64,000 bases of DNA from Betaproteobacteria bacterium (GTDB lineage Bacteria > Pseudomonadota > Gammaproteobacteria > Burkholderiales > Usitatibacteraceae), in the NCBI GenBank assembly GCA_016791265.1, contig JAEUMY010000008.1, forward strand, positions 1 through 64,000. Direction: 5' to 3'. How positions within the stretch are numbered: position 1 is the stretch's first letter; each line of letters begins with the position of its first letter. A program made the translations under genes and the position numbers. The notes beneath the pieces were generated by a model. The model was not told the DNA's origin. It was given only the letters and a program-made list of their open reading frames with translations, and ran no database searches. Positions 931 to 62,232 of this stretch are shown here, piece after piece.

Positions 931-2532
931 ATGGATCGCCGGACCTTCCTCAAGATTTCCGCTGCTGTTTCCTCTGCCTCGGCTGCTAGCGCTGCAGTCG
1001 CGGCACCGTCCGCCACCAAGGGTGGCTTCACCGTGGTCGAGGCCAGCGTTGCCGACCTGCAAAAGGCCATGGCCAGCGGCAAGCTCACGTCCAAGGCGCT
1101 GACCCAGGCTTACATCGCCCGCATCAAGGCCATCGACAAAGCCGGGCCGCGCATCAACTCGGTGATCGAGATGAATCCCGACGCGCTTTCCATCGCCACG
1201 CAGATGGACAAGGAGCGCAAGGCTGGCAAGGTGCGCGGGCCGTTGCACGGCATCCCGGTTCTCTTGAAGGACAACATTGCCACCGGCGACAAGATGCAGA
1301 CCACCGCAGGCTCGCTGGCACTGCTCGGCGCCCGCGCGGTGAAGGACGCGCACATCGTCACACGGCTCCGCGATGCGGGCGCCGTCATCCTGGGCAAGAC
1401 CAACCTGTCCGAATGGGCGAATATTCGCAGCACGCGGTCCACCTCCGGCTGGAGCGCACGCGGCGGGCTCACGAAGAATCCCTATGCGCTGGACCGCAAT
1501 ACATCGGGCTCCAGCTCGGGTTCCGGCGCGGCCGCTGCCGCCAGCCTGGCCACGCTGACGGTGGGCACCGAAACCGATGGCTCCATCATTTCGCCGTCCA
1601 GCATCAATGGCCTGGTCGGCATCAAGCCCACGCTGGGTCTGGTGAGCCGCAGCGGCATCATTCCCATCGCGCATTCGCAGGACACGGCCGGCCCCATGAC
1701 GCGCACCGTGGCGGACGCCGCGGCGCTGCTTACTGCCTTGGCGGGCACGGATGTCAGCGACCCCGCCACCAAGGAAGCGTCAGATAAATCCGTCGACTAC
1801 ACCAAGGCGCTGAACAAGGACGCGCTGAAAGGTGCGCGCATCGGCGTCGTGCGTTCGCAGTTTGGCGGGCGCAACGATCTCGTTTCCGCGGAGATCGAGA
1901 AGGCGCTGGAATTGCTGAAGGCACAAGGCGCAACACTGGTGGACATCAAGGAAATGCCGGGTGCCGGCAAGTTTGGCGCGACCGAATACCAGGTACTGCT
2001 GTACGAACTGAAAGCCGGCCTCGCCGCTTACATCGCCGAGTACGCACCCACCGCCAAGGTCAAGACGCTGGCCGACATCATCGCGTTCAACGAGGCCAAC
2101 AAGAAAAAAGAAATGCCGTGGTTCGGCCAGGAGCATTTCATCCTTGCCGAAGCCAAGGGCGACCTCACTAGCAAGGAATATCTGGATGCACTCGCCAACA
2201 ATCACAAGTTCTCGCGCGAGGAAGGCATCGACAAGGCGCTGAAGGACAACAGCCTCGACGCGCTGGTGGCTCCCAGCGGCTCGCCCGCGTGGCTCACGGA
2301 CTTCATCCGCGGCGACAACAGCGGCGGCGGGTTCAGCTCACCGGCGGCCGTGGCGGGCTATCCGCATGTCACCGTGCCGGCGGGGTTTGTGCATGGCTTG
2401 CCCTGCGGCATCTCGTTTGTGGGTACGGCGTGGAGTGATGCCAAATTGATCGGCTATGCGTATGCGTTCGAGCAGGCGAGCAAGGTGAGGAAGGCGCCGA
2501 CGTTTGCGAAGAGCGTCAATGTCAATACCTGA
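931..2532 (+). CDS. Exported amidase, peptide amidase (Pam)-like
   Basis: A 533-residue amidase-signature (AS) family hydrolase, which would cleave a C-N amide bond. The N-terminus DRRTFLK followed by an Ala/Ser-rich stretch looks like a twin-arginine signal, so the enzyme probably acts in the periplasm. The Ser-cisSer-Lys triad is visible: Lys113 (in VLLKDN), the Ser of GSSSGSG (194-199) and Ser218 in TETDGSI. The surrounding KPTLGLVSRSGIIPI and SQDTAGPMTRTVADAA closely resemble bacterial peptide amidases that deamidate C-terminal peptide amides; this substrate is inferred. The start is supported by a GGAGA upstream. An iterated palindrome copy encodes Ala-Asn-Ile-Arg at about residues 163-166. 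The 3' end overlaps the next gene. Confidence 0.9.
   Translation: MDRRTFLKISAAVSSASAASAAVAAPSATKGGFTVVEASVADLQKAMASGKLTSKALTQAYIARIKAIDKAGPRINSVIEMNPDALSIATQMDKERKAGKVRGPLHGIPVLLKDNIATGDKMQTTAGSLALLGARAVKDAHIVTRLRDAGAVILGKTNLSEWANIRSTRSTSGWSARGGLTKNPYALDRNTSGSSSGSGAAAAASLATLTVGTETDGSIISPSSINGLVGIKPTLGLVSRSGIIPIAHSQDTAGPMTRTVADAAALLTALAGTDVSDPATKEASDKSVDYTKALNKDALKGARIGVVRSQFGGRNDLVSAEIEKALELLKAQGATLVDIKEMPGAGKFGATEYQVLLYELKAGLAAYIAEYAPTAKVKTLADIIAFNEANKKKEMPWFGQEHFILAEAKGDLTSKEYLDALANNHKFSREEGIDKALKDNSLDALVAPSGSPAWLTDFIRGDNSGGGFSSPAAVAGYPHVTVPAGFVHGLPCGISFVGTAWSDAKLIGYAYAFEQASKVRKAPTFAKSVNVNT
1417..1428. repeat. GCGAATATTCGC palindrome copy
   Basis: Exact copy inside the amidase gene, read as Ala-Asn-Ile-Arg. 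Confidence 0.95.
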
Positions 2533-3130
2533 AACCGCGCACCCTTCACGGCCCGAGCCGTTCGCAGCGCAAGGCACACTGTTTGCGCTGGGCATTCGCC
2601 GCTTCACCAATGTCGCCGAAAGCTTTTCGGCAGACCGTACGGTCGAGCTTGCGAACCGTCATCTCGATCACGTGACCCGAGCCATCGCGAAGCATGGCGG
2701 CGAAGTGCATCAGTTCATCGGTGATGCGGTAGTGGCCTATTGGCTTGACGGGAGCACATCTGGCGCATGTGCCGCGTTCGCCTGTTCGCTCGATCTCTTG
2801 GCAGATCCCATGCCCGCCAAGATGGAGAAGGGAGTCGCTTACGACCTCAACATCAGCCTCGCGACCGGCGAGATTGTCGGCGCGTACTTTGGCCCAATCC
2901 AGCAGTTTCAACTCATTGGTGCGGCGAAAAACATTTCGGATCGATTGTCGTCCGGTCCCGGAATGGGGCACGGTCTTCGCTTGTGTCAGTACACGGCATC
3001 AAAGCTGGCAAGTACTGATTTGATCTCTCCGATTGCCTCGGTCGAGCGTGCCGGGTTGGAGCCGCTCGTCGTTCATGGCTTGAAGAAAGCTGTCAGGCCG
3101 GAAGCTGCGCCCTGGTGGCGCTGGCGCTGA
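2519..3130 (+). CDS. Degenerate class III nucleotide cyclase-domain protein
   Basis: About 203 residues. The ATG at 2519 overlaps the end of the amidase gene by 14 bases; an in-frame start at 2504 is possible. Class III cyclase signatures are recognisable: LFALGIRRFT near residues 21-30, HQFIGDAVVAYW around Asp69, and NISDRL with Asn138 and Arg142 at the transition-state positions. The first metal-binding Asp expected in the LFADIRGFT-type motif is missing, with Leu-Gly at that place, so two-metal catalysis is doubtful. It may be a binding or regulatory domain. The stop overlaps the start of the next gene (TGATG), suggesting translational coupling of amidase, this gene and the exported protein after it. 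Confidence 0.75.
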   Translation: MSIPETAHPSRPEPFAAQGTLFALGIRRFTNVAESFSADRTVELANRHLDHVTRAIAKHGGEVHQFIGDAVVAYWLDGSTSGACAAFACSLDLLADPMPAKMEKGVAYDLNISLATGEIVGAYFGPIQQFQLIGAAKNISDRLSSGPGMGHGLRLCQYTASKLASTDLISPIASVERAGLEPLVVHGLKKAVRPEAAPWWRWR

Positions 3131-4374
3131 TGCGAATATTCGCGATCAATAGGTTTGTTGTCCTGCCAAGTGTCTGCGGTGTGTTGCTGCTGACCGGGAT
3201 GCTGGTCGCGGCGCCGCCCGCTGCCGCAAGCGATGCATTGATTGCTGAATTGGAGGCACCACTTCCAAAGATCAGTCCGGAAATTGACTTGGTAGCCGCA
3301 CTGCGTGGCGTGTTGCTGACAGACGAGCCGGATCTCACTCGCGCGGGCAAGCGTGTGCTGAGCAACGAACTCAGTGACCGCGAGCAGAAGTCGCTTCGGC
3401 AAGTGCAAGAGCGTCTCAGCGAGGCTGTTCGGTCGCTGGATTGCTGGTGGCAGCACGGACTGCCCAAGGAGCACCTGTGTGCAGATGAGCTGCAGCTACT
3501 CGCCACTCTCGCTGAGTTTGATCCAGTTCTCGCGCGGTACGAGAAAGCGATTGCCCGCAGTCAGAGTTCGGTTTCAATGGACTCTTGGCGCGAACTGATG
3601 GATTTGAACAGACTGGTGTTTGCTCGAATCGGCTGGCTTGCGTCTCGTGGCGACCGCGATAAGGCGCTCAGGCTATGGCAGCAGAATCAGGCTGCTTTGG
3701 CCAGATTGCGCAAAGCCGGCGGAATTGCGGTCCCGTCAATCATGGTGACGTTGTCCGAGAACTACAGCCTGGAGGCTCTCGAATCCCTGTTGGCGCGAGC
3801 GCCCACGTTGGCAAAAGAAGATCGCAAGGTCATCGATGAATTGCTTGCAGATCGTGCCTGGACTCGTGAGCGACTGATCGCAGATCTGCGAGCCCAGTAT
3901 TGGCTTGTCGCAGACCTGGCCCGGTCGCAATTGAAGGGCGATGACGAGCTGTTCGTGAGCGAAGTGTTGAAGCGGCAGGTTGCGTATTCGGTTGATGTGT
4001 TGCCCCTCCTGCTGACTCGGGAGGATGACTTTCAGTCTGCGCGCGCGCTTCACAGGTCGATCGAGTGTCCGAATTCGACAGTCACGTCCTGCTGGAAGCA
4101 GAAGACGTCGGATCGCCGCTATGCCGAGTTCTACTTTTCTTCGCTCAGCATAGAGGGCGTGGCATCTGCGCAGCGCCGCGATGTTGCTGCGCATTTGCTG
4201 CGCCTGCGACTGCAATGGGATGCTGTGGGGCGTCACGCGGCGGCTTTCGCGAAGCTGGTGGAGGATTTCAATCGCGCGTCGCCTGATTCGCGGGTGATCT
4301 TGGACCCCGAGCAGGCCAGTATTCGCTTCGAGGACCCCAGTCGCTCAAGGCTTGTGGTTCGCCTGCCCCGCTGA
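3130..4374 (+). CDS. Exported protein of unknown function
   Basis: 414 residues, not recognised as any family. The start ATG at 3130 overlaps the previous stop as TGATG. An N-terminal hydrophobic stretch ending near AAPPAAASDA looks like a cleavable signal peptide, so the product is probably periplasmic. The rest is rich in Leu, Arg and Glu and predicted mostly helical, with four Cys. The iterated palindrome forms codons 1-5 (Met-Arg-Ile-Phe-Ala), so it supplies the very start of the signal peptide. Coupling to the cyclase-like gene suggests that the two products work together. A bidirectional terminator follows. Confidence 0.7.
   Translation: MRIFAINRFVVLPSVCGVLLLTGMLVAAPPAAASDALIAELEAPLPKISPEIDLVAALRGVLLTDEPDLTRAGKRVLSNELSDREQKSLRQVQERLSEAVRSLDCWWQHGLPKEHLCADELQLLATLAEFDPVLARYEKAIARSQSSVSMDSWRELMDLNRLVFARIGWLASRGDRDKALRLWQQNQAALARLRKAGGIAVPSIMVTLSENYSLEALESLLARAPTLAKEDRKVIDELLADRAWTRERLIADLRAQYWLVADLARSQLKGDDELFVSEVLKRQVAYSVDVLPLLLTREDDFQSARALHRSIECPNSTVTSCWKQKTSDRRYAEFYFSSLSIEGVASAQRRDVAAHLLRLRLQWDAVGRHAAAFAKLVEDFNRASPDSRVILDPEQASIRFEDPSRSRLVVRLPR
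3132..3143. repeat. GCGAATATTCGC palindrome copy
   Basis: Exact copy that includes the G of the start codon of the exported protein gene; read as Arg-Ile-Phe. Confidence 0.95.
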
Positions 4375-4404
4375 AATTGCAGTGCGCGGCTGCGGCACAC
4401 AAAC

Positions 4405-4434
4405 AAAAAAGCCACCCGAAGGTGGCTTTTTCTT
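4405..4434. terminator. Bidirectional intrinsic terminator
   Basis: Stem GCCACC/GGTGGC with loop CGAA, flanked by an A-run on the left and a T-run on the right. It can end both the upstream plus-strand gene and the minus-strand cold-shock gene converging on it. Confidence 0.9.
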
Positions 4435-5286: not shown

Positions 5287-5298
5287 GCGAATATTCGC
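5287..5298. repeat. GCGAATATTCGC palindrome copy
   Basis: Exact intergenic copy, 27 bases after the DUF2237 stop. The symmetry extends to 18 bp (5284-5301, ATT...AAT). Confidence 0.95.
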
Positions 5299-6958: not shown

Positions 6959-7840
6959 ATGCCAGAGCTCCCCGACATCGTTGTCTACTGCGAGAGTCTC
7001 GAAGCCCGCATCGCCGGTCAGGTCCTTGCGAATATTCGCATCGTCTCGCCCTTCCTCCTCCGCACGTTTGATCCGCCACTCACGGCGGCGCACGGCAAGC
7101 GCGTGCTCGGCGTCCGCCGGCTGGGCAAGCGCATCGTGCTCGCGCTGGAAGACGATCTCCATCTGGTGTTGCATCTCATGATCGCGGGCCGGCTTCGCTG
7201 GTTGAAGCCGGCCGCGAAGCCGCCCGGCAAGATCACCCAGGCGGTGTTCGAATTCGCCGACGGCGTGCTCGCGTTCACCGAGGCGGGCAGCAAGCGGCGC
7301 GCGTCCATGCACCTTGTACGTGGCGAGGCGGCCATGCGGGCGCTGCATCGCGGCGGCTTGGAGCCGCTGGATTGCACGGCAATGGAATTCGCGGCGCAGT
7401 TGCGGCGCGAGAACCGCACTGTGAAGCGCGCGCTGACCGATCCCGCCATCTTCAGCGGCATCGGCAACAGCTACTCTGATGAAATCCTGCATCGCGCAAG
7501 GCTCTCCCCGTTCGCGTTGACGCAGAAGATGCCTGACGATGAGGTGGCCCGACTTCACGCCGCCACTCAAAGCGTGCTCACAGAGTGGACGGCCCGGCTG
7601 CGCGCCGAAGCGGGCGCCGATTTCCCCGAAGGCGTCACCGCGTTTCGGCCCGAGATGGCGGTGCATGGCAAGTTCGGGCAGCCTTGTCCCGACTGCGGCG
7701 CGCGGGTGCAGCGCATCGTCTATGCCGAGAACGAGTGCAACTACTGCGCGCGCTGCCAGACCGGCGGGCGCCTGCTGGCGGATCGGTCGCTGTCCAAGCT
7801 CTTGCACGATAGTTGGCCGAGGACGCTGGACGACCTGTAG
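6959..7840 (+). CDS. Fpg/Nei-family DNA glycosylase (MutM-like)
   Basis: About 293 residues. It starts MPELPD, which places the catalytic Pro as residue 2 after Met removal; the ATG at 6959 is chosen for this reason over a TTG at 6956. Such enzymes remove oxidised bases and nick the abasic site. Glu3, a conserved Lys in the LGKRIV segment, the H2TH region around GIGNSYSDEILH and a C-terminal C-x2-C...C-x2-C zinc finger ending TGGR are all seen. The sequence diverges from textbook MutM, so substrate preference (8-oxoG or pyrimidines) is open. A palindrome copy encodes Ala-Asn-Ile-Arg at about residues 24-27. Confidence 0.9.
   Translation: MPELPDIVVYCESLEARIAGQVLANIRIVSPFLLRTFDPPLTAAHGKRVLGVRRLGKRIVLALEDDLHLVLHLMIAGRLRWLKPAAKPPGKITQAVFEFADGVLAFTEAGSKRRASMHLVRGEAAMRALHRGGLEPLDCTAMEFAAQLRRENRTVKRALTDPAIFSGIGNSYSDEILHRARLSPFALTQKMPDDEVARLHAATQSVLTEWTARLRAEAGADFPEGVTAFRPEMAVHGKFGQPCPDCGARVQRIVYAENECNYCARCQTGGRLLADRSLSKLLHDSWPRTLDDL
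7028..7039. repeat. GCGAATATTCGC palindrome copy
   Basis: Exact copy in the glycosylase gene, read as Ala-Asn-Ile-Arg; symmetric over 14 bp. Confidence 0.95.
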
Positions 7841-8224: not shown

Positions 8225-9151
8225 CTATCGCGCGAAAAAATCCGCCAACACTTGCGCGAGGGCCACCGGCTGGTCGTGTTGCAGCATGTGACCGGCGTCG
8301 GCAATGGTGGCCCTGCGAATATTCGCGACGCAGGCCGCGCGACTGGCGAGATCGGTGTCGTCGGCGCCGTGGAAACGCGTGAGCAAATCCGACCGGTCAC
8401 CCTGAACCCAAAGCGTGGGCGCGGTGATGCGGCGCCACGCCGCCATCGCTTCCGCCAAGCGGTAGCTGTAGGGGCCGGGTGACTTGTGGCGGGGATCGTG
8501 TTTCAAGGCGAAGCCTCCTTCCACCGGCTTCGCCTGCTCGGCGGCGAGATAGAGCGAGCGCGGCACGCTCAGTCGCGGATTCGCACGGCGGAGTCGCTCC
8601 GCCACATCGTCCAGACGCGGGTACGGGCGCATCGCGCCGGGGGACGCGCGCAAGTGATCCAACCATTGGACGATCCGCTCCGGCGCGCCTTCCGCCGGCA
8701 TGTCGGGCAGGCCAAAGCCTTCCAGCGACACCAGCCGCGCGACGCGTGTCGGCCGCAGTCCGGCGTAGATGCAGGCGATGTTGCCGCCCATGCTGTGACC
8801 GATCAGCGTGACTGGCCCATTGCCCGAGAAGTGGTCCAGAAGCGCATCCAGGTCGGCGTGATATTCGGCAAACCAATAGGTGTCCGCGGCCGGCCACGCA
8901 CTGTCTCCGAATCCTCGCCAGTCGAACGCGCACCAGCGATGACGCGCGAAGAGTGGGTCGGGCAGTTCATCGACGAGGAATTGCCAGGACGACGAGGCGT
9001 CCATCCAGCCGTGCAGCAGCACGACCGGCGGCATGGCGGGGTCGCCCCACTCGCGGGTGGCGAGCCGCGCATCGCGAATATTCGCGATGGCGCGGCGCGG
9101 CGCACGGCGCGGGGTCCAAGGTGCGGGTTTGTCAGCGGCAGGGCTTTGCAT
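8225..9151 (-). CDS. Alpha/beta hydrolase
   Basis: 308 residues. The alpha/beta-hydrolase fold is shown by VVLLHGWMDASSSW (oxyanion hole), FDWRGFGDS, the nucleophile elbow GHSMGG with Ser120, and a C-terminal GHMLQHD with the catalytic His. The substrate is unknown. Two iterated palindrome copies lie in this gene, near each end, and both are read as Ala-Asn-Ile-Arg. It is the only gene here with two copies in the same frame. It is transcribed away from the zinc-ribbon gene. Confidence 0.9.
   Translation of the reverse strand: MQSPAADKPAPWTPRRAPRRAIANIRDARLATREWGDPAMPPVVLLHGWMDASSSWQFLVDELPDPLFARHRWCAFDWRGFGDSAWPAADTYWFAEYHADLDALLDHFSGNGPVTLIGHSMGGNIACIYAGLRPTRVARLVSLEGFGLPDMPAEGAPERIVQWLDHLRASPGAMRPYPRLDDVAERLRRANPRLSVPRSLYLAAEQAKPVEGGFALKHDPRHKSPGPYSYRLAEAMAAWRRITAPTLWVQGDRSDLLTRFHGADDTDLASRAACVANIRRATIADAGHMLQHDQPVALAQVLADFFAR
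8315..8326. repeat. GCGAATATTCGC palindrome copy
   Basis: Exact copy near the 3' end of the hydrolase gene, read as Ala-Asn-Ile-Arg on the minus strand. Confidence 0.95.
9074..9085. repeat. GCGAATATTCGC palindrome copy
   Basis: Exact copy near the 5' end of the hydrolase gene, read as Ala-Asn-Ile-Arg. Symmetry extends to 18 bp (9071-9088, ATC...GAT). Confidence 0.95.
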
Positions 9152-11133: not shown

Positions 11134-11145
11134 GCGAATATTCGC
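11134..11145. repeat. GCGAATATTCGC palindrome copy
   Basis: Exact intergenic copy, 20 bases after the GlcG-like stop and 76 bases before the next start. Confidence 0.95.
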
Positions 11146-15811: not shown

Positions 15812-15825
15812 CGGCGGCGGTCGAT

Positions 15826-15837
15826 GCGAATATTCGC
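15826..15837. repeat. GCGAATATTCGC palindrome copy
   Basis: Exact copy in the 38-base gap between msrA and the KTSC gene. It abuts AAGGAG, the ribosome-binding site of the next gene. Confidence 0.95.
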
Positions 15838-16090: not shown

Positions 16091-18034
16091 TCAGCGCTCC
16101 TGCGTGCGCGCGGGATTCTTGACGCGATCCGATTCGCGGTTGTCGTCCCGCTCGCGCGGCTCGCGCTCACGCGAGGCGGGCGCGGGCTTGGGCTGCGGCG
16201 CGGGTTGCGCTTGCGGCGCGGGCTGCGCCGGTGCCGGGCGGCTCGACATGCTGTCCGTGCCGCGCGGCTTTTCGACTCGATCCGCGCGCTCCACCCGTTC
16301 CACCCGCTCCGGCCGCTCGCTGCGCGGCGGGCGCGGTGAGACCTCGCGCGTGATGGGCATCGGTTGCGGCGTGACCTGCGCTGCTTCTGCGGGTGCGCGC
16401 GGCTTGGGGGTGTGACGTGGTTGAGGCTCCACACGCTGCACGGGCACCGGGGTCGGAGTGGGCGCAGCCGCTGGCGCCGGCGTCGGAACAGCCGGCACCG
16501 CGGGCGCGTATTGCGGCGCGGGCCGTGAAGGCATGCTGTCGGCAGGCGCGGGCACGGCGCCACCGCCATCCAGGGTCGCGGGTTTCGGTCCGCCCGGCGT
16601 CGCACCCCCGATGGGCTGCGGCTTCTGCGCGCGCGACCCGCCTGCGCCGTCCACGGTCCGGCCGGGCAGCGGCATCGGCACCGGTGTGGGTTCGGCGGAC
16701 GGGGCGGGCTGCAGCACCGCTGGCTTGCCGTGCGGCGCGGCCGGATTGTTGGCCACGCCAGGCACGCCGCGACGTGGCGGCAACGTCACGCCGTCTTGCA
16801 CGACAGGCTGATTCCAGACCGCCTCGCCCGGTACGCGACCGCGATGCGTGGCCACCGGCAAGGACCCCTGGAAGGTCGTCGGCGCCACCACCGTGGCGCC
16901 CGGCTTGTGATTGGCGTACTGGCGCGGCGGCCGCGTGTACACCGGCCGATTGATGTGGATGTGGTTGATGTTGTAGATGTAGGTCGGGCTATGGCGATAC
17001 CACGGCACGTAGGCCTCGTAGGGCGCCAGCGGGAACCAGCCGATGCCGGGGCCGCTGCCCGTGCTGTAGGACACCGTCCAGCCGTTGCCGCCGATCCACG
17101 CCACCAGCGCCGGCGACCAGATCGGACGATGGATGCGGTTGCCTGGCCACCAGGCCCAGCGGCCGCGCACATGCACCCATCGGCCATAGTGCATGGGCGC
17201 GAAGCCCCAGGGCGCGTCATCGATCCAGGTCCATCCCCACGGGCGCACGTAGCGCCAGTGGCCATAGCGGTATGGCGCCCAGTCCACTTCGACGCGTGGC
17301 ACCCAGACACGGCCGTACTCGGACTCGGAATTCCAGTCGCCGTGGCGGTTCAACTCTTCATAGCCGGTCATGTACGGCGAGACTTCCTGCGGTGCGGCCA
17401 CCTCCCAGCGATCATCGCGCGCCTGCGCCCAGTCGTCGAACTCGGTGCGGGCGACGGGCTCGATGCGCGCACTGCCACGGTCCAGCAAGGCCATTCGGCC
17501 CGCGTCGATCCACGGCGAGCCGGCGGCGGATTCCACCCGCGCGCGGCCGGACATCACCGCAATGCGCGCCTCGCCCTTGTCCGTGTCGGCCTCGATGCGA
17601 TAGCTGCCGCGAGCGCGCAGCGTGACCGTGCCTTCGGGCGTGAAGATACGGAATATTTCGCCCTTTTCGATGAGGCCGATGCGAATATTCGCGGCACCGC
17701 GCTGGACATAGAGCGCCAGCTCATTGTCATCGAGTTTCTGCACGTCGACGACGGTGTCGTGATCGAGGCGCACCGCAGCCGGGCCGACTTTCCATTCGGC
17801 GCGCGCTCGACCCTCGGTCCAGATCGAGTTCTCCGAGGTCACCGGGAAATTCAGCTTCGCGGGCTGCCAGCCGTCTTCCTGGTCGGCGTAGAACCTGACC
17901 GTGCCTTCGATAAGGGTGATGCGGCCGACGCGGCCGGGCGGGTCGGCCGCCAGTACTCCCGTTGAAAACACCGCCATCAGGCAGAGCACAGCGGTTGCAA
18001 CAAGATGTTTCATCGCCAGCCTCGGGTTTTTCAT
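16091..18034 (-). CDS. Exported FecR-like/DUF6600 protein with proline-rich tail
   Basis: 647 residues. The start is supported by GAGGAGAA upstream. A signal peptide ends near VLAADPPG. Residues about 35-190 look like a FecR-type beta domain (RITLIEGTVRF, VQRGAANIRIG, GSYRIEADTDKGEARI, DRGSARIEP). A DUF6600-like Trp/Tyr/Gly-rich section follows (about 215-350, WVPRVEVDWAPYRYGHW, WTWIDDAPWGFAPMHYGRW). Residues about 380-647 are low-complexity Pro/Ala/Arg. It is an envelope protein of unknown role. A palindrome copy encodes Ala-Asn-Ile-Arg at about residues 114-117. Confidence 0.85.
   Translation of the reverse strand: MKNPRLAMKHLVATAVLCLMAVFSTGVLAADPPGRVGRITLIEGTVRFYADQEDGWQPAKLNFPVTSENSIWTEGRARAEWKVGPAAVRLDHDTVVDVQKLDDNELALYVQRGAANIRIGLIEKGEIFRIFTPEGTVTLRARGSYRIEADTDKGEARIAVMSGRARVESAAGSPWIDAGRMALLDRGSARIEPVARTEFDDWAQARDDRWEVAAPQEVSPYMTGYEELNRHGDWNSESEYGRVWVPRVEVDWAPYRYGHWRYVRPWGWTWIDDAPWGFAPMHYGRWVHVRGRWAWWPGNRIHRPIWSPALVAWIGGNGWTVSYSTGSGPGIGWFPLAPYEAYVPWYRHSPTYIYNINHIHINRPVYTRPPRQYANHKPGATVVAPTTFQGSLPVATHRGRVPGEAVWNQPVVQDGVTLPPRRGVPGVANNPAAPHGKPAVLQPAPSAEPTPVPMPLPGRTVDGAGGSRAQKPQPIGGATPGGPKPATLDGGGAVPAPADSMPSRPAPQYAPAVPAVPTPAPAAAPTPTPVPVQRVEPQPRHTPKPRAPAEAAQVTPQPMPITREVSPRPPRSERPERVERVERADRVEKPRGTDSMSSRPAPAQPAPQAQPAPQPKPAPASREREPRERDDNRESDRVKNPARTQER
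17681..17692. repeat. GCGAATATTCGC palindrome copy
   Basis: Exact copy in the FecR-like gene, read as Ala-Asn-Ile-Arg on the minus strand. Confidence 0.95.
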
Positions 18035-21162: not shown

Positions 21163-21174
21163 GCGAATATTCGC
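21163..21174. repeat. GCGAATATTCGC palindrome copy
   Basis: Exact intergenic copy, six bases after the coiled-coil/AsmA stop and 12 bases before a terminator stem. Confidence 0.95.
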
Positions 21175-23044: not shown

Positions 23045-23056
23045 GCGAATATTCGC
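23045..23056. repeat. GCGAATATTCGC palindrome copy
   Basis: Exact intergenic copy, 15 bases before the ferredoxin-NADP reductase start. Confidence 0.95.
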
Positions 23057-37833: not shown

Positions 37834-38646
37834 TCAGGCCAGGAGCGCTGCGGGTGCGCGCACGATCCAGTCGAAAGTGCCGAGGACAGGTCTGCGGCGA
37901 AACACATCGCCCTTCACGGCATCAATCTTGTCCAGAATCGCGTGGCCGCCGGCAAGGACGAACCGAAGCTCGTAACCCATGCGTCCGGGGAGTGCCCGGG
38001 TCAGCGGCCGGCCGCTTTCGAGGAGCTCGCGTGCGCGCTGACACTGAAAGGCCATCAGCGCCTGCCAGGCGTCACCGGTCCGCGCGTCGGCGATATCGCT
38101 CTCGCTCACGCTGAAACGCTCGAGGTCTTCCTGGGGCAGATAGACGCGGCCCTTGCGCCAGTCCACCGCGACGTCCTGCCAGAAATTGATGAGCTGCAAC
38201 GCCGAGCAAATGGCGTCGGACCACCGCAACGTCTGCTCCGACTGCCGCTTGTTGAGATGCACCAGCAGCCGCCCGATGGGATTGGCCGAACGACTGCAGT
38301 AGTCCATCAGATCGCGAATATTCGCATAGCGCTTGGTGGTCACATCCTGACTGAAGGCATCGAGCAGATCATGGAACAGCTCGACCGGCAGGTCATACGA
38401 TTCAATCCAGTGTGCGAGTTCGAGAAACAACGGCCCCAGTTCACCGCGCTGGCCCGCCGAAAGCCGGTGCAGCGATTGCCGATAGCCGTCCAGCAGCTCA
38501 AGCCGCGCGGAGTCCGCGAGGTCGCCTTCGTCTGCGAAGTCATCGGCGCTGCGGGCGAAGCGATAAATGGTCTCGATCGGCTTGCGCAGATGGCGGGGCA
38601 GCAGGAACGAGGCGACGGGAAAGTTTTCGTAGTGGTCGACCGGCAT
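37834..38646 (-). CDS. hpnC: Hydroxysqualene synthase
   Basis: 270 residues. Squalene/phytoene synthase fold with DDFADE at 35-40, DVTTKRYANIRDLMDYCSRSANPIGRL, and NFWQDVAVDWRKGRVYLP. It turns presqualene diphosphate into hydroxysqualene; with HpnD and HpnE it yields squalene for hopanoids. No squalene-hopene cyclase gene is in the window. The palindrome encodes Ala-Asn-Ile-Arg in the conserved helix before YC, so it is accepted in a core part of the fold. Confidence 0.94.
   Translation of the reverse strand: MPVDHYENFPVASFLLPRHLRKPIETIYRFARSADDFADEGDLADSARLELLDGYRQSLHRLSAGQRGELGPLFLELAHWIESYDLPVELFHDLLDAFSQDVTTKRYANIRDLMDYCSRSANPIGRLLVHLNKRQSEQTLRWSDAICSALQLINFWQDVAVDWRKGRVYLPQEDLERFSVSESDIADARTGDAWQALMAFQCQRARELLESGRPLTRALPGRMGYELRFVLAGGHAILDKIDAVKGDVFRRRPVLGTFDWIVRAPAALLA
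38314..38325. repeat. GCGAATATTCGC palindrome copy
   Basis: Exact copy in hpnC, read as Ala-Asn-Ile-Arg on the minus strand. It is the last copy before an 8-kb gap. Confidence 0.95.
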
Positions 38647-45407: not shown

Positions 45408-47315
45408 ATGTCTTCCAGTCTTGTCTTTTCATTTGCGCGGTCGAAGATCGTTCAGGTCATTTTCTTCAGCGTTCTGGTGGTTTCTTTCGCGTTCGTGGGC
45501 ATAGAGGCCTACTTCACCACTCCGGCAGGCCAAGACACGGTCGCGGAAGTGGGCAGTCAGCGCATCACCACGGCCGAGTTTGATCAGGCTCTGCGCCAGC
45601 AGCAGGACCGCATTCGCGGCATGCTGGGGCCGAACTTCGATTCACGCATGTTCGAATCGAAGGAAGCGCGCATGCAGATCGTCGATGATCTGGTTAATCA
45701 GAAGCTGATCGTGGTCGCGGCCGAGCGAGCGGGTGCGAGCGTGAGTGACGTGGCGCTCGCCGAGCAGATCGCCAAGATGCCCGACTTCCACGAGGGCGGA
45801 AAATTCTCGGCGGACAAGTACGCGAGCATTCTCAAGGCCAACGGACGGCCCCCAAAGGTTTTCGAGGCGGCGATGCGCAAGGACATGGAGCGCACACTCT
45901 TCGTCGAGTCGGTCACCCGCACTGGTTTCGCCAGCGGCGTGTCGGCGGAGCTGTTCGTGAAGGCCATGGACCAGTCGCGCGAAGTCTCTCTGGTGACAAT
46001 TCCGGCTGACCCGTATCTGACCGAAGCCAAGATCAGCGCCGAGCGGGTCAAGGCCTACTATGACCAGAACAAGGCCGAGTTCACCGTGCCCGAGCAAGTC
46101 CGCGCCGAGTATGTCGAGCTGTCGCTGGACGCGCTGGCCGGCGCGGAGGCGATCGCGCCTGAGGACGTGAAGAAGGCCTACGACAGCGGCTATGCCGCCA
46201 AGCACGAGGAGAAGCTTGCCGCCCGCAAGAAGGCGGAAGAAGTGCTTTCCAAGGCGCGCAAGGAGCCCAAGCGATTCGCCGACCTTGCACGCGAATATTC
46301 GCAAGACCCGGGCTCGGCCCAATCTGGCGGCAGCCTGGGTGCGTTCGGCAAGGGCGCGATGGTCAAGCCGTTCGAGGACGCCGTCTTCAACAAGCTGAAA
46401 GTCGACCAGATCAGTGATCTCGTCGAGACCGATTTCGGCTTTCACATCATCAAGCTCACTGGCATCAAACCAAAGAAAGACGGCGTGGAGGAGCAGCGCG
46501 AAGCCAGTCACATTCTCATCAGCGCGCCCAAGGAAGGGAAGTCATTCGAGCAGGCGAAGGCCGAGATCGAGCGCAACCTGCGCCGCGATCGCGCTGGCAA
46601 GAAGTTCGCCGAAGTGGCCCAGGTGTTCAGTGATCGGGTGTTCGAGCAGTCCGGATCGCTGAAGCCCGTGGCCGACGAGTTGAAGCTCGCCATTCGCGCC
46701 ACGCCCTGGATGGGCAAGGGCATGGGCTTCCCACCGTTCAACAACCCAAAGTTGTCGCAGGCCCTGTTCTCCGATGAAGTGCTGAAGAACAAGCGCAACA
46801 CCGAGGCCGTCGAGATCGCGCCCAACGTGCTGGTCGCCGCCCGCGCCGTCGAAGTCAAGCCGGCGGAGATTCGACCGCTCGCATCGGTCGAGGCCGACAT
46901 TCAGCGCAAGCTCCAGCGCGAGGAGGCGGGCAAGCTGGCTCAAGCAGAGGGTGAGAAGAAGCTGAAGGCGCTCAAAGAAGGCGTCGAGGCGACAGTCACC
47001 TGGCCCGCGCCGCTGGCGGTCAGTCGCCAGAAGAGTGGTGCCTTGAATCCGCAGGTCCTGGATCAGGTTCTGAAGGCGAGTGTGGCGAAGCTGCCGGCGT
47101 ATCTCGGCGTGAAGGACGGTCAGGGTGGCTACACGCTCGTGCGCATCAGCAAGATCATCGACCCGCCCGCGCCGGACGCGGCAACGTTGACCTCGCTTCG
47201 TCAGCGAACAGAGCAGGCGCTTTTGCAGGAGGAGCTGGCCGCGCTCCTCGCGCATGCCCGCAAGGAAACGGGCGTGAAAGTTCGTGCGAGCGCCGTCGAG
47301 TTCAAGCCACAGTGA
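45408..47315 (+). CDS. ppiD: Periplasmic folding chaperone/PPIase PpiD
   Basis: 635 residues from [16 protein letters not shown], with GGAGAAGGA upstream. One N-terminal membrane span (about 14-35) anchors the periplasmic SurA-like chaperone region. A parvulin domain follows at about 275-375 ([46 protein letters not shown]), then a second degenerate SurA/parvulin-like region. It helps outer-membrane protein folding at the translocon. The palindrome sits exactly on the Glu-Tyr-Ser of the parvulin motif, residues that are natural there. Usual synteny with hupB and fabI. Confidence 0.95.
46291..46302. repeat. GCGAATATTCGC palindrome copy
   Basis: Exact copy in ppiD, read as Glu-Tyr-Ser of the conserved parvulin motif; it is the first copy after an 8-kb gap. 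Confidence 0.95.
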
Positions 47316-48363: not shown

Positions 48364-49521
48364 ATGCTCCCCGACCGTCCACCCATCTTTCACCTCAATT
48401 CATCGCCCACGCTGGGGGGCGCGGAGGTCTACACCGGTTTTCTCGCACACGCGCTGCAGGAAGGCGGTTGGCGAAACGTCATCGTGACCGGCCGCAACGC
48501 GTCCTGGTGGCGTGACATTCAGCACGGGGACATCGAGCTTCGCGAGCACGACTTCCGGGTGCGGGACGACATTGCGGGCATTCCGGACGATGCCTTGATC
48601 TGTGTTCATGCGCCTTTGCCGAAGGGCTTGCTGGATCGACTGGCGGCGCGACACCGTGTCCTCGGGCTCGGCCACCAGGCCGTCTATTCCTCCTCCATTC
48701 CCTACTACTACCGTGCCGCGCATCGCTTGCTGCCCGTGTCGGCGCATGTCGCCGCCACACTGCGAGCCGCGGGCTTTTCAACTGTTCACGAGACGCCGCT
48801 TCTGGGGGTCGCGGAACTCGGCCGGCGCGATACAGGCGCAGGCATTCGCCAAGGTGCGATGGTCGAGTGGGATCAGCGCAAGACGCGTGACCGGCTGTTG
48901 GCGTGGGGCGAGCCGTTCATCGAGTGGATGATGCCCAGGCGAATATTCGCAAAGCGGCTGGGCCTCACCCTGGGCGTGGTGTCGCGGCTTGCGCCGTTGA
49001 AGCAGTTTCCCGCGTTGTTCACCGCGCTCATGCCGGCGCTGCTCCGGCAGCCCGATGTGAATCTAGAAGTGTTTGGCAGCGCCATCGGCTACCGCGCATA
49101 TCGCGAGCTGCGGCGTGTGCTGGCCCCGTTGGGTCAGCGTGCGCGCTTCTGGGGATTTCAATCGAACGTGGGCGCGGTCTATGCCGAACTGGACTACCTC
49201 CTCACCGGCCTGCCGGAGCGCGAAGCCTTGGGCTTGAACGTGATCGAAGCGCAACAGTGCGGCACGCCGGTGCTGGCGCCTGCGGCCCCGCCCTTCACCG
49301 AAACCATGATCGATGGCGTGACCGGTTATCTCTACGCCGATCCGCGCGAGGACCGGGGGGCCGGATTCCAGTCCGCCCTGGAACGGGCGCGCGCCATGCG
49401 TCCCGACCCGCGGTTTGCCACGGAGCACTTGCAGCGCTTCTCCTTCGCCGCGTTTCGAGCGCGCGCGGACGCGGTTTTCGCCGCAGAGGCCGTTCAGGTT
49501 GCGAGTTCCGGCCATGCTTGA
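48364..49521 (+). CDS. Glycosyltransferase, GT4-like
   Basis: 385 residues from [15 protein letters not shown] (an ATG-like frame extends further upstream). N-terminal acceptor half begins with [16 protein letters not shown]; the donor half has [14 protein letters not shown] and the C-terminal [22 protein letters not shown] with the E-x7-E type pattern of retaining GT4 enzymes. It probably builds a surface polysaccharide or lipopolysaccharide with the ligase/polymerase gene that it overlaps by 8 bases. A palindrome copy encodes Arg-Ile-Phe before the donor domain. Confidence 0.88.
48939..48950. repeat. GCGAATATTCGC palindrome copy
   Basis: Exact copy in the glycosyltransferase gene, read as Arg-Ile-Phe. 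Confidence 0.95.
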
Positions 49522-52664: not shown

Positions 52665-54502
52665 TTGCGAATATTCGCAGGACCGGGGCGCTTGCGTGCG
52701 CGATGATTCTGGCGGCAGCCGGTCACGCCGCGGTGGCGAGCGCGAAAGACGGGCAAGGGCCGGACTTGCGCAAGGTGTTGCGCTACGCCTTTGAGGTCGC
52801 GGAAACGAGCATGGATCCGCAAAAGGTCAGTGACGTGTATTCCAACATCGTCAACAACGCGCAATTCGATTCGCCGCTGCGCTACGACTACCTCGCTAGG
52901 CCCACCAAACTCGTGCCCAATGTCACCGTGGGCATGCCGGAGTTCACCGACAACTATCGCACGCTGACATTCAAGATTCGGCCTGGCATTTACTTCGCGC
53001 CGCACGAAGTCTTTGGCGGCAAGAAGCGCGAGCTAACCGCCGAAGACTACGTCTACACCATCAAACGCCTGTTCGATCCGAAGTTGTCGGCGCCGCTACT
53101 GGCCGAGGTGGAGGGCTACATCGTCGGCTCCGACGAGATGATGAAGCGTGTGCGCAAGGCCAACAAGATGGACTACGACACGCCGCTGGAGGGTCTCAAG
53201 GCGCTCGATCGGTACACGGTGCAGATCAAGCTGAACGACCCCAAACCCAACTGGATATACAACCTTGCCGACTGTCGTGTGTCCTGCGCCGTGGCCCGCG
53301 AAGTGGTGGAGAAGTATGGCGAAGACATCGGCTCCAATCCGGTCGGCACAGGGGCGTATCGCATCGCATTCTGGAAGCGCTCGTCCAAGATGGTGTTCGA
53401 GCCGAATCCGAACTTCCGTGAAGAGTATTTCAGTGGCGAACCGGCCGCCGACGACAAGGAAGGCCAAGAGATTCTCGCCAGACTGAAAGGGCGTCGGTTG
53501 CCGATGGTTGGCAAAGTCGAGGTTTACATCATCGAAGAGCGCCAGCCGCGTTTCCTCGCGTTCCAGAACGTCGAACATGACCTGCTCTGGATCGTGCCAG
53601 AAGACTTCGCCAATCTGGTCATGCCGAACAACAAACTGGCGCCTGGTCTCGAGAAGCAGGGGATTCGTCTGTCACAAATTGCCGCCCTGGATATCACCTA
53701 CGCCGTGTTCAACATGAACGACCCCCTCGTGGGTGGGTATTCGCCAGACAAGGTGGCATTGCGCCGAGCCATTTCGCTGGCCTACAAGACGCACGATGAA
53801 ATTGCCATCATCCGCAAAGGGCAGGCGATTCCGGCGCATACGCCGTACAGTCCGGGCGTGATCGGTTACGACCCCAACTTCAAAACCTCGGCCAACGAGT
53901 ACAACCCGGCCAAGGCCAAGGCGCTGCTTGACATGTATGGGTACGTGGATCGGGACGGTGATGGCTACCGCGAGATGCCGGACGGAAAACCGTTGGTGTT
54001 GCAGCATCACACGTCCCCCACGGCACGCGATCAGCAGTTCGATGAATTGTGGAAGCGTTCGATGGACGAGATCGGACTAAAGATCAACATCAACAAAGGC
54101 AAGTGGCCCGACCATCTCAAGGCCTCCAATGCAGGAAAGCTGATGATGTGGCAGTTGGGAGGTTCCGCATCCAGCCCTGACGCGAGCGGAACGTTGCTCA
54201 ACTTGTACGGACCCACCGCCGGATTCAAGGGCAACCGCGCCTTTTTCAAGTTGCCGGCGTATGACGAGGCCTACGAAAAAGCGGAACAGCTTCCACATTC
54301 GCCTGAACGCACGAGGCTCTACCAGGAAATGGCGCGATTGATGGTGGCCTACGCACCTTGGAAGATCAACACCCACCGCATCATTTCCGATCTGTACTAT
54401 CCGCATGTGATCGGTTTTCGCCGCCCCATGGTGCAAAGCCAGAACTGGTGGCGTTTCATCGACATCGATCTTGAACTGCGGAAGAAGTACGTTACCCAGT
54501 GA
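52661..54502 (+). CDS. Peptide-type ABC transporter substrate-binding protein 2
   Basis: 613 residues. Start ATG overlaps the stop of binding protein 1. The signal peptide begins Met-Ile-Ala-Asn-Ile-Arg-Arg, so the palindrome supplies the basic N-region. It is paralogous to its neighbours over the full length (AETSMDPQKVSDVYSN, VGTGAYRIAFWKRSSKMVFEPNP, VDRDGDGYREMPDG). It has an extra Cys pair (DCRVSCAV), absent from the others. The D-x-D-G-D-G loop is conserved. Confidence 0.94.
   Translation: MIANIRRTGALACAMILAAAGHAAVASAKDGQGPDLRKVLRYAFEVAETSMDPQKVSDVYSNIVNNAQFDSPLRYDYLARPTKLVPNVTVGMPEFTDNYRTLTFKIRPGIYFAPHEVFGGKKRELTAEDYVYTIKRLFDPKLSAPLLAEVEGYIVGSDEMMKRVRKANKMDYDTPLEGLKALDRYTVQIKLNDPKPNWIYNLADCRVSCAVAREVVEKYGEDIGSNPVGTGAYRIAFWKRSSKMVFEPNPNFREEYFSGEPAADDKEGQEILARLKGRRLPMVGKVEVYIIEERQPRFLAFQNVEHDLLWIVPEDFANLVMPNNKLAPGLEKQGIRLSQIAALDITYAVFNMNDPLVGGYSPDKVALRRAISLAYKTHDEIAIIRKGQAIPAHTPYSPGVIGYDPNFKTSANEYNPAKAKALLDMYGYVDRDGDGYREMPDGKPLVLQHHTSPTARDQQFDELWKRSMDEIGLKININKGKWPDHLKASNAGKLMMWQLGGSASSPDASGTLLNLYGPTAGFKGNRAFFKLPAYDEAYEKAEQLPHSPERTRLYQEMARLMVAYAPWKINTHRIISDLYYPHVIGFRRPMVQSQNWWRFIDIDLELRKKYVTQ
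52667..52678. repeat. GCGAATATTCGC palindrome copy
   Basis: Exact copy at codons 3-6 of binding protein 2, read as Ala-Asn-Ile-Arg in the signal peptide. Confidence 0.95.
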
Positions 54503-56489: not shown

Positions 56490-56491
56490 GC

Positions 56492-58297
56492 ATGCGAATA
56501 TTCGCAATTCTCGTGTGTGCTGGAATGCTGGTCGCCGATGCGGCGCATGCGCAGCAGAAGGTGTTGCGCACCCAATTTCGCACGGCCGAAACCGGCTTCG
56601 ATCCGCAACAGCGCGACGACCGCTATTCCGTCGGCGTGATGGAGAACATCTTCGAGCCACTGCTGACCTATGACTATCTGGCGCGCCCAGTCAGATTGGT
56701 CTCGCTCACGGCGACCGAAGTGCCGCAGGCGGAGGAGAGCGGCACACGCTACACCTTCAAGTTGCGTCCCGGCATCCTGTTCGCCGACGATCCGGCTTTT
56801 GGCGGCAAGAAGCGCGAGCTGGTGGCGGCGGATATCGAGTACTCGATCAAGCGCTTTCGTGATCCGGTCAACCGCAGCCCGTACGAATGGCTGTTCGAGA
56901 ACAAGCTGGTCGGTCTGGATGAGCTCGCCGCGCAGGCGAAGAAAACCGGCAAATTCGACTATGACGCCAGGATTGAGGGCATTCGCGTCATCGACAAGTA
57001 CACCATCAGCTTCAAGCTGAAGGAGCCGGACTACAACTTCCTCTACATCCTCGCCATGCCCAATGTGGTGCCGGTCGCGCGCGAGGTGATCGAGAAGTAC
57101 GGGACCAATTCCAATGCCCACCCGGTCGGCACGGGCCCGTACCTCCTCAAGGAATGGACGCCGCGCTTCAAGATCGTGCTGGAGAAGAATGCCAATTTCC
57201 GCGGCTTCACGCTGAATGAGGAATTCGCCGATCCGAAGGATGAATGGGACCAGCGCGCCATCGCCGACTTGCGCGGCAAGAAGCTGCCGCTCCTGGACCG
57301 CATTGAAATCTATCCCATCGAGGAGGAGCAGCCGCGCTTCCTCGCGTTCATGAACGGCGATCACGACGTGATGCTGGAGACGCCCTTCGCGTTCATCAAT
57401 CAGGTGCTGCCCAACGGCAAGCTCTCTGACGGCATGGCGAAGAAGGGCGTGCGCGCGTTCAAGGAGTCGCAGCCGGAAATCACCTACGACGCGTTCAACG
57501 TGGACGAGAAGAAGAGTCCCACGATTGGCGGCTATTCACCCGAGAAAGTCGCGCTGCGTCGCGCGATGGTGCTGGCTTACGACAACGAGCAGGAAGTGCG
57601 CATCGCCAGGAAGGGCCAGGCCATGCCCGCGCAGTCGCCGGTTCCGCCGGGCATCGTGGGCTACGACCCCGCTTTCCGCGCCGAGGCGACGCAGCATGAC
57701 CCAGTGCGCGCGAAAGCGCTGCTGGACATGTACGGATATGTCGACAAGGACGGCGATGGCTGGCGCGAGAAGCCGGACGGCACGCCGCTGACCCTCAACT
57801 ACAAATACAACGCGCGCAACGACGAGAACCGGCAATTGGCGGAGCTCTTCGTCAAGTGCATGGCGGCGGTGGGTTTGCGGGTGACGTCGCTGCCGGTGCA
57901 ATTTTCCGATCTGTTGCGCGACCGCAAGGTGGGCAAGTACGAGATCGGCCAATCCGCGTGGATCGCTGACTACCCCGATGCGCAGAACTTCCTGCAACTG
58001 CTTTACGGACCCAATACCGACCAGTCCAACGATGCGCGCTTCCAGTTGGCGGCGTTTGATCGCCTCTACGAGAAATCGCTTACCATCCCGGACAGCCCGG
58101 AGCGCAACGCCCTGTATCGCGAGATGAATCGGTTGATCGTGGCTTACGCCCCCTGGCGCCTGGGCGTGCATCGCGTGTTCAACCATCTCATGTATCCCTG
58201 GGTCAAGGGTTTCAAGAAGCATCCCATCCTGTATACGAATTACATGTACCTCGACCTTGATGTCGCGGAACGCGACAAGGCGCTGGGAAATCGATAG
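56492..58297 (+). CDS. Peptide-type ABC transporter substrate-binding protein 4
   Basis: 601 residues from the ATG; a GTG at 56486 overlapping the previous stop is possible. The signal peptide starts Met-Arg-Ile-Phe-Ala, codons made by a palindrome copy, and ends near DAAHAQ. Full-length paralogue closest to binding protein 3 (both have GLDELAAQAKKTGKFDYDA). The D-x-D-G-D-G loop is in VDKDGDGWREKPDG. Last of four binding proteins before the permeases. Confidence 0.94.
   Translation: MRIFAILVCAGMLVADAAHAQQKVLRTQFRTAETGFDPQQRDDRYSVGVMENIFEPLLTYDYLARPVRLVSLTATEVPQAEESGTRYTFKLRPGILFADDPAFGGKKRELVAADIEYSIKRFRDPVNRSPYEWLFENKLVGLDELAAQAKKTGKFDYDARIEGIRVIDKYTISFKLKEPDYNFLYILAMPNVVPVAREVIEKYGTNSNAHPVGTGPYLLKEWTPRFKIVLEKNANFRGFTLNEEFADPKDEWDQRAIADLRGKKLPLLDRIEIYPIEEEQPRFLAFMNGDHDVMLETPFAFINQVLPNGKLSDGMAKKGVRAFKESQPEITYDAFNVDEKKSPTIGGYSPEKVALRRAMVLAYDNEQEVRIARKGQAMPAQSPVPPGIVGYDPAFRAEATQHDPVRAKALLDMYGYVDKDGDGWREKPDGTPLTLNYKYNARNDENRQLAELFVKCMAAVGLRVTSLPVQFSDLLRDRKVGKYEIGQSAWIADYPDAQNFLQLLYGPNTDQSNDARFQLAAFDRLYEKSLTIPDSPERNALYREMNRLIVAYAPWRLGVHRVFNHLMYPWVKGFKKHPILYTNYMYLDLDVAERDKALGNR
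56494..56505. repeat. GCGAATATTCGC palindrome copy
   Basis: Exact copy that includes the G of the start codon of binding protein 4; read as Arg-Ile-Phe. Symmetric over 14 bp. Confidence 0.95.
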
Positions 58298-58379: not shown

Positions 58380-59318
58380 ATGGCGGCATACATCATTCGA
58401 CGACTGTGGCAGATGATTCCCACGCTGGGGGGCGTCATCCTGCTCATCTTTTTCCTGTTCACTTACTTTGGCGGCGACCCCGCCCTGGTGCTGGCGGGCA
58501 AGATTTCCAATCCTGAGCAGATCGCGAATATTCGCAAGCAGCTCGGCGTGGACGAGCCTTACTGGAAACAGTTGCTCATCTTCGTGCAACAGGTGTTCAC
58601 CTTCGACTTTGGCCGCAGTTGGTCGACCAACGAGGAAGTTTCCAAAATCATCCTCACCCGCGTCGGTCCGACACTCACCATCATGATTCCGGTGTTGGTC
58701 ATCGAGACCATTCTGGCCATCATCCTGGCCATCGGTGTGGCCTATGTGCGCGGCACATTGACCGACCGCACCATCATGATCATCTGCACGGTGGCGATGT
58801 CGATCAGCTTCCTGGTCTACATCATCGTCTTCCAGTGGCTGTTCGGTTTCATACTGGGCTGGTTCCCCGTGCAGGGCTGGAGCGAAAGCTTCTGGAAGAA
58901 CCTGTTCACGTACGCGCCTCTGCCCATTATGCTCGCCGTATTCGTGGGCCTCGCACCGCAGCTACGGCTCTATCGCTCGTTCTTCCTGGAAGAGATCAAT
59001 CAGGACTACGTGCGCACCGCGCGCGCCAAGGGCGTGCCGGAAAACGTGATCATGAGGAAGCATGTGCTCCGCAACGCCATGATCCCGATCCTCACCAACA
59101 TCGGCATCTACATTCCGGGTCTATTCGTGGGTTCCTTCCTGCTGGAAGTGTTTTTCTCGATTCCCGGCCTTGGCCGAGAAGTCGTGACCGCGGTGAACCG
59201 CTCAGACTTTCCCGTCATCAAGGCGATCACGGTCTATCTCGCCATGATCACCATGCTCGTCAATCTCGCCGTCGACGTGATGTACAAGTTCGTCGATCCG
59301 CGCGTTCAGTTGAAGTGA
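58380..59318 (+). CDS. ABC transporter permease, DppB/OppB type
   Basis: 312 residues, six membrane spans. Start MAAYIIRRLWQMIPTLGGV is typical; GAGG lies upstream. The EAA loop that docks the ATPase is visible (EEINQDYVRTARAKGVPENVIMRKHVLRNAMIPI). A palindrome copy encodes Ala-Asn-Ile-Arg in the conserved periplasmic stretch PEQ-IANIRKQLGVDEPYW. It pairs with the OppC-type permease 10 bases downstream. Confidence 0.95.
   Translation: MAAYIIRRLWQMIPTLGGVILLIFFLFTYFGGDPALVLAGKISNPEQIANIRKQLGVDEPYWKQLLIFVQQVFTFDFGRSWSTNEEVSKIILTRVGPTLTIMIPVLVIETILAIILAIGVAYVRGTLTDRTIMIICTVAMSISFLVYIIVFQWLFGFILGWFPVQGWSESFWKNLFTYAPLPIMLAVFVGLAPQLRLYRSFFLEEINQDYVRTARAKGVPENVIMRKHVLRNAMIPILTNIGIYIPGLFVGSFLLEVFFSIPGLGREVVTAVNRSDFPVIKAITVYLAMITMLVNLAVDVMYKFVDPRVQLK
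58524..58535. repeat. GCGAATATTCGC palindrome copy
   Basis: Exact copy in the DppB/OppB-type gene, read as Ala-Asn-Ile-Arg. Confidence 0.95.
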
Positions 59319-62158: not shown

Positions 62159-62170
62159 GCGAATATTCGC
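62159..62170. repeat. GCGAATATTCGC palindrome copy
   Basis: Exact intergenic copy, 14 bases after the ATPase stop and 10 bases before a terminator stem. Confidence 0.95.
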
Positions 62171-62180
62171 AGCGAGAATG

Positions 62181-62206
62181 ACAAGGCCCGCAATCGCGGG
62201 CCTTGT
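62181..62206. terminator. Hairpin terminator between convergent genes
   Basis: ACAAGGCCCGC/GCGGGCCTTGT (11 bp) with loop AATC. The T-run is poor. A palindrome copy lies on each side. Confidence 0.75.
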
Positions 62207-62220
62207 CGTATTGAGCGCTT

Positions 62221-62232
62221 GCGAATATTCGC
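62221..62232. repeat. GCGAATATTCGC palindrome copy
   Basis: Exact intergenic copy, nine bases beyond the DUF4394 stop; symmetry extends to 16 bp. Only 50 bases lie between this and the previous copy. Confidence 0.95.

Follow-up and report, generated by a model that had tools for sequence, protein, structure and literature searches.

A dense 12-base palindrome restricted to one of 779 genomes searched: a possible self-recognition sequence in a Burkholderiales bacterium

The 64,000 nucleotides of DNA analysed here (positions 1 to 64,000 of contig JAEUMY010000008.1, hereafter the window) carry the 12-base palindrome GCGAATATTCGC 24 times, and the genome to which they belong (G000; 3,937,828 bases in 24 contigs, 89.9% complete) holds 1,624 exact copies, i.e. 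one per 2,425 bases or 412 per Mb, with no occurrence of the reversed pattern that served as control. Among the 779 genomes searched, the dense 12-mer is restricted to G000. We tentatively suggest, at somewhat less than an even chance, that the palindrome marks DNA for self-recognition, is spread through a bias in DNA uptake or recombination and works like a DNA-uptake sequence (DUS). A first-pass annotation of the window had listed the 24 copies and proposed a genome-wide, drive-like character for them in a proteobacterial host. All 24 lie where that annotation placed them, and none occurred in 100 dinucleotide shuffles; the host fits and, as several named relatives of the searched proteins are Burkholderiales, most likely belongs to that order, and the proposed character is borne out by the G000 count, by protein alignments and by a 1.05-Mb sample of the genome.

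This sample (1,049,212 bases) comprises the window and 50 further stretches and underlies the counts by phase, gap, island and mismatch given below, while codon-typicality, logo and Markov figures rest on a sample of 649,212 bases (649 kb). The larger sample contains 442 copies, one per 2,374 bases, and the density of the window (24 in 64,000) is thus typical. In five simulations, a third-order Markov background of the smaller sample yielded 0.0 exact copies, against 268 seen. Neither a count near the Markov expectation nor confinement of the copies to the window, the two outcomes named beforehand as fatal to the proposal, was found, and a composition artefact was rejected on the Markov model and the shuffles. 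Copy number in 5-kb bins is near random (variance/mean 1.10), and along 124 kb of contig C7 spacing is slightly more even than random, with a coefficient of variation (CV) of 0.74 compared with 0.76–1.26. Three pairs of copies lie close together, with starts 17, 24 and 27 bases apart (L206:3933-3961, L207:19803-19838 and L238:15275-15313).

The motif is a perfect palindrome of 50% GC with an AT-rich centre. In the 1.05-Mb sample the exact copies are accompanied by 67 with one mismatch, of which 47 deviate at the outermost base, and by 51 with two. Corresponding counts in the 649-kb sample were 268, 41 and 31, where the Markov model expects 0.0, 2.0 and 31.8; since the two-mismatch count lies at the expectation, there is no surplus of decayed or half-built copies past one mismatch. 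AATATT occurs 328 times in these 649,212 bases, GAATATTC 302 times, CGAATATTCG 298 times and the full motif 268 times. Because 302 of the 328 hexamers sit within GAATATTC, the motif accounts for most AATATT. The remaining 26 match the 24–26 or so that we estimate from composition, and a short-site methyltransferase target alone was rejected on this ground.

The preferred Y-...-R context noted in the annotation was recovered from 183 copies, with T at base -1 in 62.6% of arms and C in 22.1%; in the window, eight copies extend to TGCGAATATTCGCA and two to CGCGAATATTCGCG. Intergenic flanks (94 sites) weakly extend the motif to CNTTGCGAATATTCGCAANG, with T at -1 in 76%, T at -2 in 49% and C at -4 in 49%, and the 147 copies outside genes, four at gene edges included, have T at -1 in 74.5%. 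The 309 sites with at most one mismatch in the 649-kb sample carry 25.8 bits over 24 positions, when 11.2 bits would be enough to find 1,624 places. The motif has a sharply defined 12-base core and flanks of graded preference.

Copies sit in permissive sequence. Genes were called by codon usage and make up 85.7% of the 1.05-Mb sample; ‘intergenic’ in this sense includes missed genes, and gaps of 12–400 bases give the safer intergenic figure. Of the 442 copies, 143 fall between genes and 4 at gene edges; within genes codon phase 0 is preferred, with 170 copies (encoding A-N-I-R) against 60 in phase 1 (x-E-Y-S-x) and 65 in phase 2 (R-I-F-A). The 12–400-base gaps contain 113 copies in 65.0 kb (1.74 per kb), about 5-fold the density in genes (0.328 per kb; 295 in 899 kb). 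When genes of the 649-kb sample were ranked by codon typicality, the most typical fifth carried 0.186 copies per kb, the fourth 0.258 and the three least typical 0.347–0.387. The favoured T on the left would make a Cys codon in phase 1 and is rare there (8 of 60), and the A on the right is kept in 41 of 60. Nine low-GC islands (53.5 kb, defined by GC alone) hold 14 copies where 22.5 are expected (P = 0.038), and a polysaccharide island with glycosyltransferases and an epimerase (16 kb of L255) holds one where 6.7 are expected (P = 0.009).

The copies of the window, with strands of the genes in brackets (ORF, open reading frame), are as follows.

Copy 1, 1417..1428: in the amidase gene 931-2532 (+), phase 0 (ANIR); a solved amidase aligns without an insert
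Copy 2, 3132..3143: near the start of the weakly supported ORF 3115-4374 (+)
Copy 3, 5287..5298: intergenic, 27 bases past the stop of ORF 4891-5259
Copy 4, 7028..7039: in the Fapy-glycosylase-like gene 6959-7840 (+), phase 0
Copy 5, 8315..8326: in the alpha/beta-hydrolase gene 8225-9151 (-), phase 0 (ANIR)
Copy 6, 9074..9085: in the same alpha/beta-hydrolase gene, 8225-9151 (-), phase 0 (ANIR)
Copy 7, 11134..11145: intergenic, 20 bases past the stop of ORF 10715-11113
Copy 8, 15826..15837: intergenic gap 15812-15849
Copy 9, 17681..17692: in ORF 16091-17977 (-), phase 0
Copy 10, 21163..21174: intergenic gap 21157-21232
Copy 11, 22320..22331: in the ABC-transporter gene 21233-22993 (+), phase 1 (CEYS); a solved homologue aligns without an insert
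Copy 12, 23045..23056: intergenic gap 22994-23071
Copy 13, 24747..24758: in the outer-membrane efflux gene 24114-25562 (-), phase 0
Copy 14, 28952..28963: in the RND adaptor gene 28819-30108 (-), phase 2 (RIFA)
Copy 15, 29706..29717: in the same RND adaptor gene, 28819-30108 (-), phase 1 (REYS)
Copy 16, 36895..36906: in the amine-oxidase-like gene 35677-37008 (-), phase 0
Copy 17, 38314..38325: in the squalene/phytoene-synthase-like gene 37834-38646 (-), phase 0
Copy 18, 46291..46302: in the PpiD-like gene 45372-47315 (+), phase 1 (REYS)
Copy 19, 48939..48950: in the glycosyltransferase gene 48364-49521 (+), phase 2
Copy 20, 52667..52678: intergenic gap 52665-52702
Copy 21, 56494..56505: intergenic gap 56490-56524
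Copy 22, 58524..58535: in the transport permease gene 58413-59318 (+), phase 0
Copy 23, 62159..62170: intergenic gap of two convergent genes, beside a hairpin
Copy 24, 62221..62232: in the same gap as copy 23, on the opposite side of the hairpin

Ten sites in six proteins were aligned with homologues; no four-residue insert was seen at any copy, and the alignments show apparent replacement of older sequence without insertion. The annotation's view that the 12-mer is not a mobile-element family agrees with this result, and a small mobile unit arriving by insertion is refuted for these 10 sites. Alignment to solved homologues shows no such insert at the amidase site (1417), hydrolase site 8315, the ABC-transporter site (22320) and both RND adaptor sites (28952, where the alignment shows a one-residue gap, and 29706). 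At the PpiD site (46291), 20 relatives align without an indel, with, for example, LAKKNSQD there and LAREYSQD here, and homologues are gap-free at hydrolase site 9074 and at three sites of glucose-6-phosphate isomerase (PGI, contig C2).

For the hydrolase, PpiD and PGI, the best 120 homologues of each search were compared, and the presence of the motif in close protein relatives was read from peptides rather than DNA. Among the 13 closest hydrolase homologues (63–73% identity), ANIR is found in 11 of the 12 that cover site 9074 and in 13 of 13 at site 8315; among the next 106 it occurs three times, always at 8315, so that this site is less telling. REYS is present in all nine PpiD homologues of 74–85% identity, followed by two with KEYS and KDYS and four with neither, and none of 104 further homologues matches [CRSG]EYS plus a fitting next residue. 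Seven PGI homologues (72–85%) have the C-terminal ANIR in six cases, RIFA in five and the N-terminal ANIR in one, the 85% homologue, and the three peptides are absent from 112 further homologues; one of the seven lacks all three, but has an SEYSL of its own. At the N-terminal PGI site, where ANIR stands here, five of the seven have E-P-L-R and one E-N-L-R, and of these six, three share the following nine residues, RMADLFAAD, and the rest differ by one. Such patterns point to many sites held in common with close relatives outside the genome set, with gain and loss, although shared ancestry of the residues by itself would give a similar picture.

The 778 other genomes (G001–G778) have 0 to 9 copies each, with the maximum of 9 in G434. 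They were drawn from 60 relatives, of which 27 belong to the family of G000, a class sample of 368 and an order sample of 398, and none is from the same genus. In a contig scan, the stretches (up to 8 kb) among the matches listed carry one or two copies, which is compatible with another dense genome. DNA of relatives was examined over 320,093 bases around ppiD from 20 of the 27 family members. Two candidates from relatives were rejected as uptake sequences or dispersed repeats: those of a sister genus (ATTTTGCC words and a 20-base tandem) are ordinary words and a local tandem, and GGGACAGTCCCC (GGGACWGTCCC inverted repeats; L223:15608-15697 of a related genome) is a single local cluster of four within 90 bases, not dispersed in the 320 kb. 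Verminephrobacter belongs to the Burkholderiales. Passages of a paper on its transformation discuss only the DUS of other families (PMC4212676). A literature search, with bioRxiv and most subscription papers outside its scope, gave no title on such a repeat in the Burkholderiales, and the sole match to the 12-mer concerns, in the text returned, colibactin.

DNA-uptake sequences, which the annotation had not named, fit the placement pattern best. We favour biased exchange because permissive placement, multi-base replacement in place, the modest deficit in low-GC islands and the over-specification of the site all fit it. The palindrome is predicted to be bound by a dimeric receptor as DNA is taken up or recombined, and preferential exchange of DNA that carries it would multiply and preserve the copies. 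For two Neisseria species, a passage of PMC3630211 gives about 1,900 uptake sequences in 2.2–2.3 Mb; 1,624 copies at 412 per Mb are of this order. According to passages of Treangen et al. (PMC2397512), many DUS of recent origin stand opposite unrelated sequence and stem from recombination, and DUS are scarce in acquired genes; spread by biased exchange is argued in sections of both papers. Overlapping uptake sequences in dyad symmetry are mentioned for Simonsiella (part of PMC3630211). G000 also encodes ComEC and a pilin of the ComP_DUS family, as this reading would want. In this reading a Burkholderiales clade may, though we would put it below an even bet, rewrite its own genome in steps of 12–14 bases, with nothing inserted, by means of a dimeric recogniser with a preference for marked DNA, and such a novel sequence drive would serve as a DNA watermark, identical on both strands, that sets the DNA of the clade apart from that of its relatives. 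DUS of Neisseriaceae and uptake signal sequences (USS) of Pasteurellaceae resemble the motif in length (about 9–12 exact bases), in number (about a thousand copies or more), in permissive placement, in multi-base replacement between relatives and in a weak flanking preference, and perhaps in being fewer in acquired DNA.

Several points weigh against this reading. DUS and USS are not known to be palindromic; an asymmetric motif is a trait of both, perhaps not a defining one, and the motif here is perfectly palindromic. Its density is also lower, and it is known from sequence alone. Two-mismatch forms are not in excess here in either sample, whereas the uptake sequences of H. influenzae and N. 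gonorrhoeae show a graded two-mismatch excess in the figures of PMC1939737. The sampled family members of G000 carry no version of the motif, and the 320,093 bases examined contain no rival iterated palindrome or comparable repeat, so a dialect series as in Neisseriaceae is not seen. Low-GC islands show a modest shortfall (P about 0.04), one of the nine (L194:3501-9500) holding six copies, and the PGI homologue with E-N-L-R could be a stepwise intermediate. ComEC (in 26 of 29 genomes searched, G000 among them) and a ComP_DUS-family pilin (at C9:106815 in G000; the family in 24 of 29) are not specific, because carriers other than G000 lack the dense motif. As the symmetry is unlike known cases and an uptake function is only predicted, we do not file the motif as a DUS.

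Alternatively, the copies might be sites like the highly iterated palindromes (HIPs) of cyanobacteria, which we consider rather unlikely: a methyltransferase would modify the inner palindrome and methylation-coupled mismatch repair would ratchet sequences towards it, the scheme put forward for HIP1 and alternate HIPs. The annotation had called HIP1 (GCGATCGC) the closest analogue, and in form this holds, as both are highly iterated palindromes with GCGA...TCGC ends; the outer-base deviation of 47 of the 67 one-mismatch copies is likewise described for HIP1, and alternate HIPs turn up sporadically in single lineages, in passages of PMC4390886 (Elhai 2015). The same passages give described HIPs 5–8 mostly GC-rich bases and about 500–2,500 copies per Mb, against 12 bases, 50% GC and 412 per Mb in our non-cyanobacterial case. 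Less well supported is the methyltransferase part of the analogy. Four families (PF00145, PF02384, PF01555 and PF02086) were searched in the 89.9% complete genome and gave no orphan enzyme: one PF02384 match (C12) has type I-like neighbours, PF01555 and PF02086 have no match, and the one PF00145 match (C21; L237:8780-10321) is a C5 methyltransferase. It does adjoin a Vsr-type mismatch endonuclease, which speaks for this view, but both belong to a low-GC restriction cassette (about 49–54%; L237:7229-11978) that also contains NOV_C and GmrSD_N proteins and an ORF matching no Pfam family. The cassette lies beside a DNA polymerase I gene (named by reading) and has no motif copy inside. Because the lone C5 enzyme belongs to this cassette, a HIP1-like methylation link does not follow. 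AATATT outside GAATATTC stays at about composition level, and a Vsr step mends one base and cannot build 12.

The motif resembles a dimer site in its symmetry and in the gradation of its flank logo, and the even-to-random spread would also suit a chromosome-organising, segregation or recombination protein with each copy kept by selection, an explanation that we think unlikely. Two viral contigs (L095, L113, L132, L103, L111) add to it by carrying the 14-mer within a common 20-base palindrome, ATCTGCGAATATTCGCAGAT, at three and two places; the first has portal, terminase, integrase and tail families as well as ParB-like and FtsK-like proteins. The viral palindrome is possibly an operator or centromere, and some protein elsewhere likely reads the same core. 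As a source of the motif the phage was rejected, its copies being few and differently flanked (ATCTGCG...CGCAGAT). Selection would have to act at each of 1,600 sites, which asks a great deal, and copies are rarest in the most codon-typical genes. The information carried exceeds the need for location by about 15 bits, which weakens the nucleoid protein proposed in the annotation. Its segregation protein is weakened too: the genome, as far as assembled, has a single ParB (PF02195 match, C12:3599) with two parS-like sites of its own (C12:7385 and 7630) within about 4 kb, and a second ParB-family protein was not found, which speaks against a ParB/Noc-like role. The sites of parS, Noc and KorB-type ParB are 13–16-base chromosomal palindromes as well, but the copy number here is far higher.

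A nicking or reverse-transcribing agent that overwrites 12–14 bases in one step, without insertion, would leave no two-mismatch excess and could change three adjacent residues between close homologues with nearly unchanged flanks, both as seen here. We nevertheless judge such direct conversion improbable, since the biased-exchange model equally predicts multi-base replacement and no candidate writer was found. Type I-like restriction genes at L251:10535-18110 (C12) enclose a reverse transcriptase and a PRTase-CE/wHTH protein, a pair that we take to resemble a type III retron. The last gene of this group (HsdS-like by reading) carries a motif copy (ANIR), but the reverse transcriptase (L251:14190-15326) has no copy near it, i.e. 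between 10,524 and 17,883, and was rejected as the writer. Least credible of all is a tiny 12-base mobile insertion or an artefact of composition: many copies in one lineage only would suit the former, but the 10 aligned sites have no inserted residues and the Markov model leaves nothing for the latter. Rickettsia palindromic elements and the repetitive extragenic palindromes and bacterial interspersed mosaic elements (REP/BIME) are also repeated palindromes, some within genes, but they are longer and arrive by insertion, while the motif here stands in place of existing bases.

Uptake sequences, Chi and HIP1 are the genome-wide iterated oligomers named in passages of PMC4390886, where Elhai describes as a mystery how HIP sequences relate to their methyltransferases. 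The present case separates the HIP and uptake ideas, because it joins a HIP shape to uptake placement in a single lineage, with the mark lacking from the relatives sampled. If the palindrome is a true uptake mark, sequence-guided DNA exchange would extend to a further group, with a symmetric signal.

Three local features were also observed. In the window, a strong hairpin, GACAAGGCCCGC...GCGGGCCTTGTC, lies between copies 23 and 24 (62159-62232) and is likely a terminator between the convergent genes. Four copies fall within 189 bases at L194:6571-6759, amid degenerate GAACTTCAGGGTC-like repeats and beside an ORF resembling an Rhs fragment. Contig C9 begins with poly-G runs of 109 and 96 bases (L201:1-209), likely a sequencing or assembly artefact.

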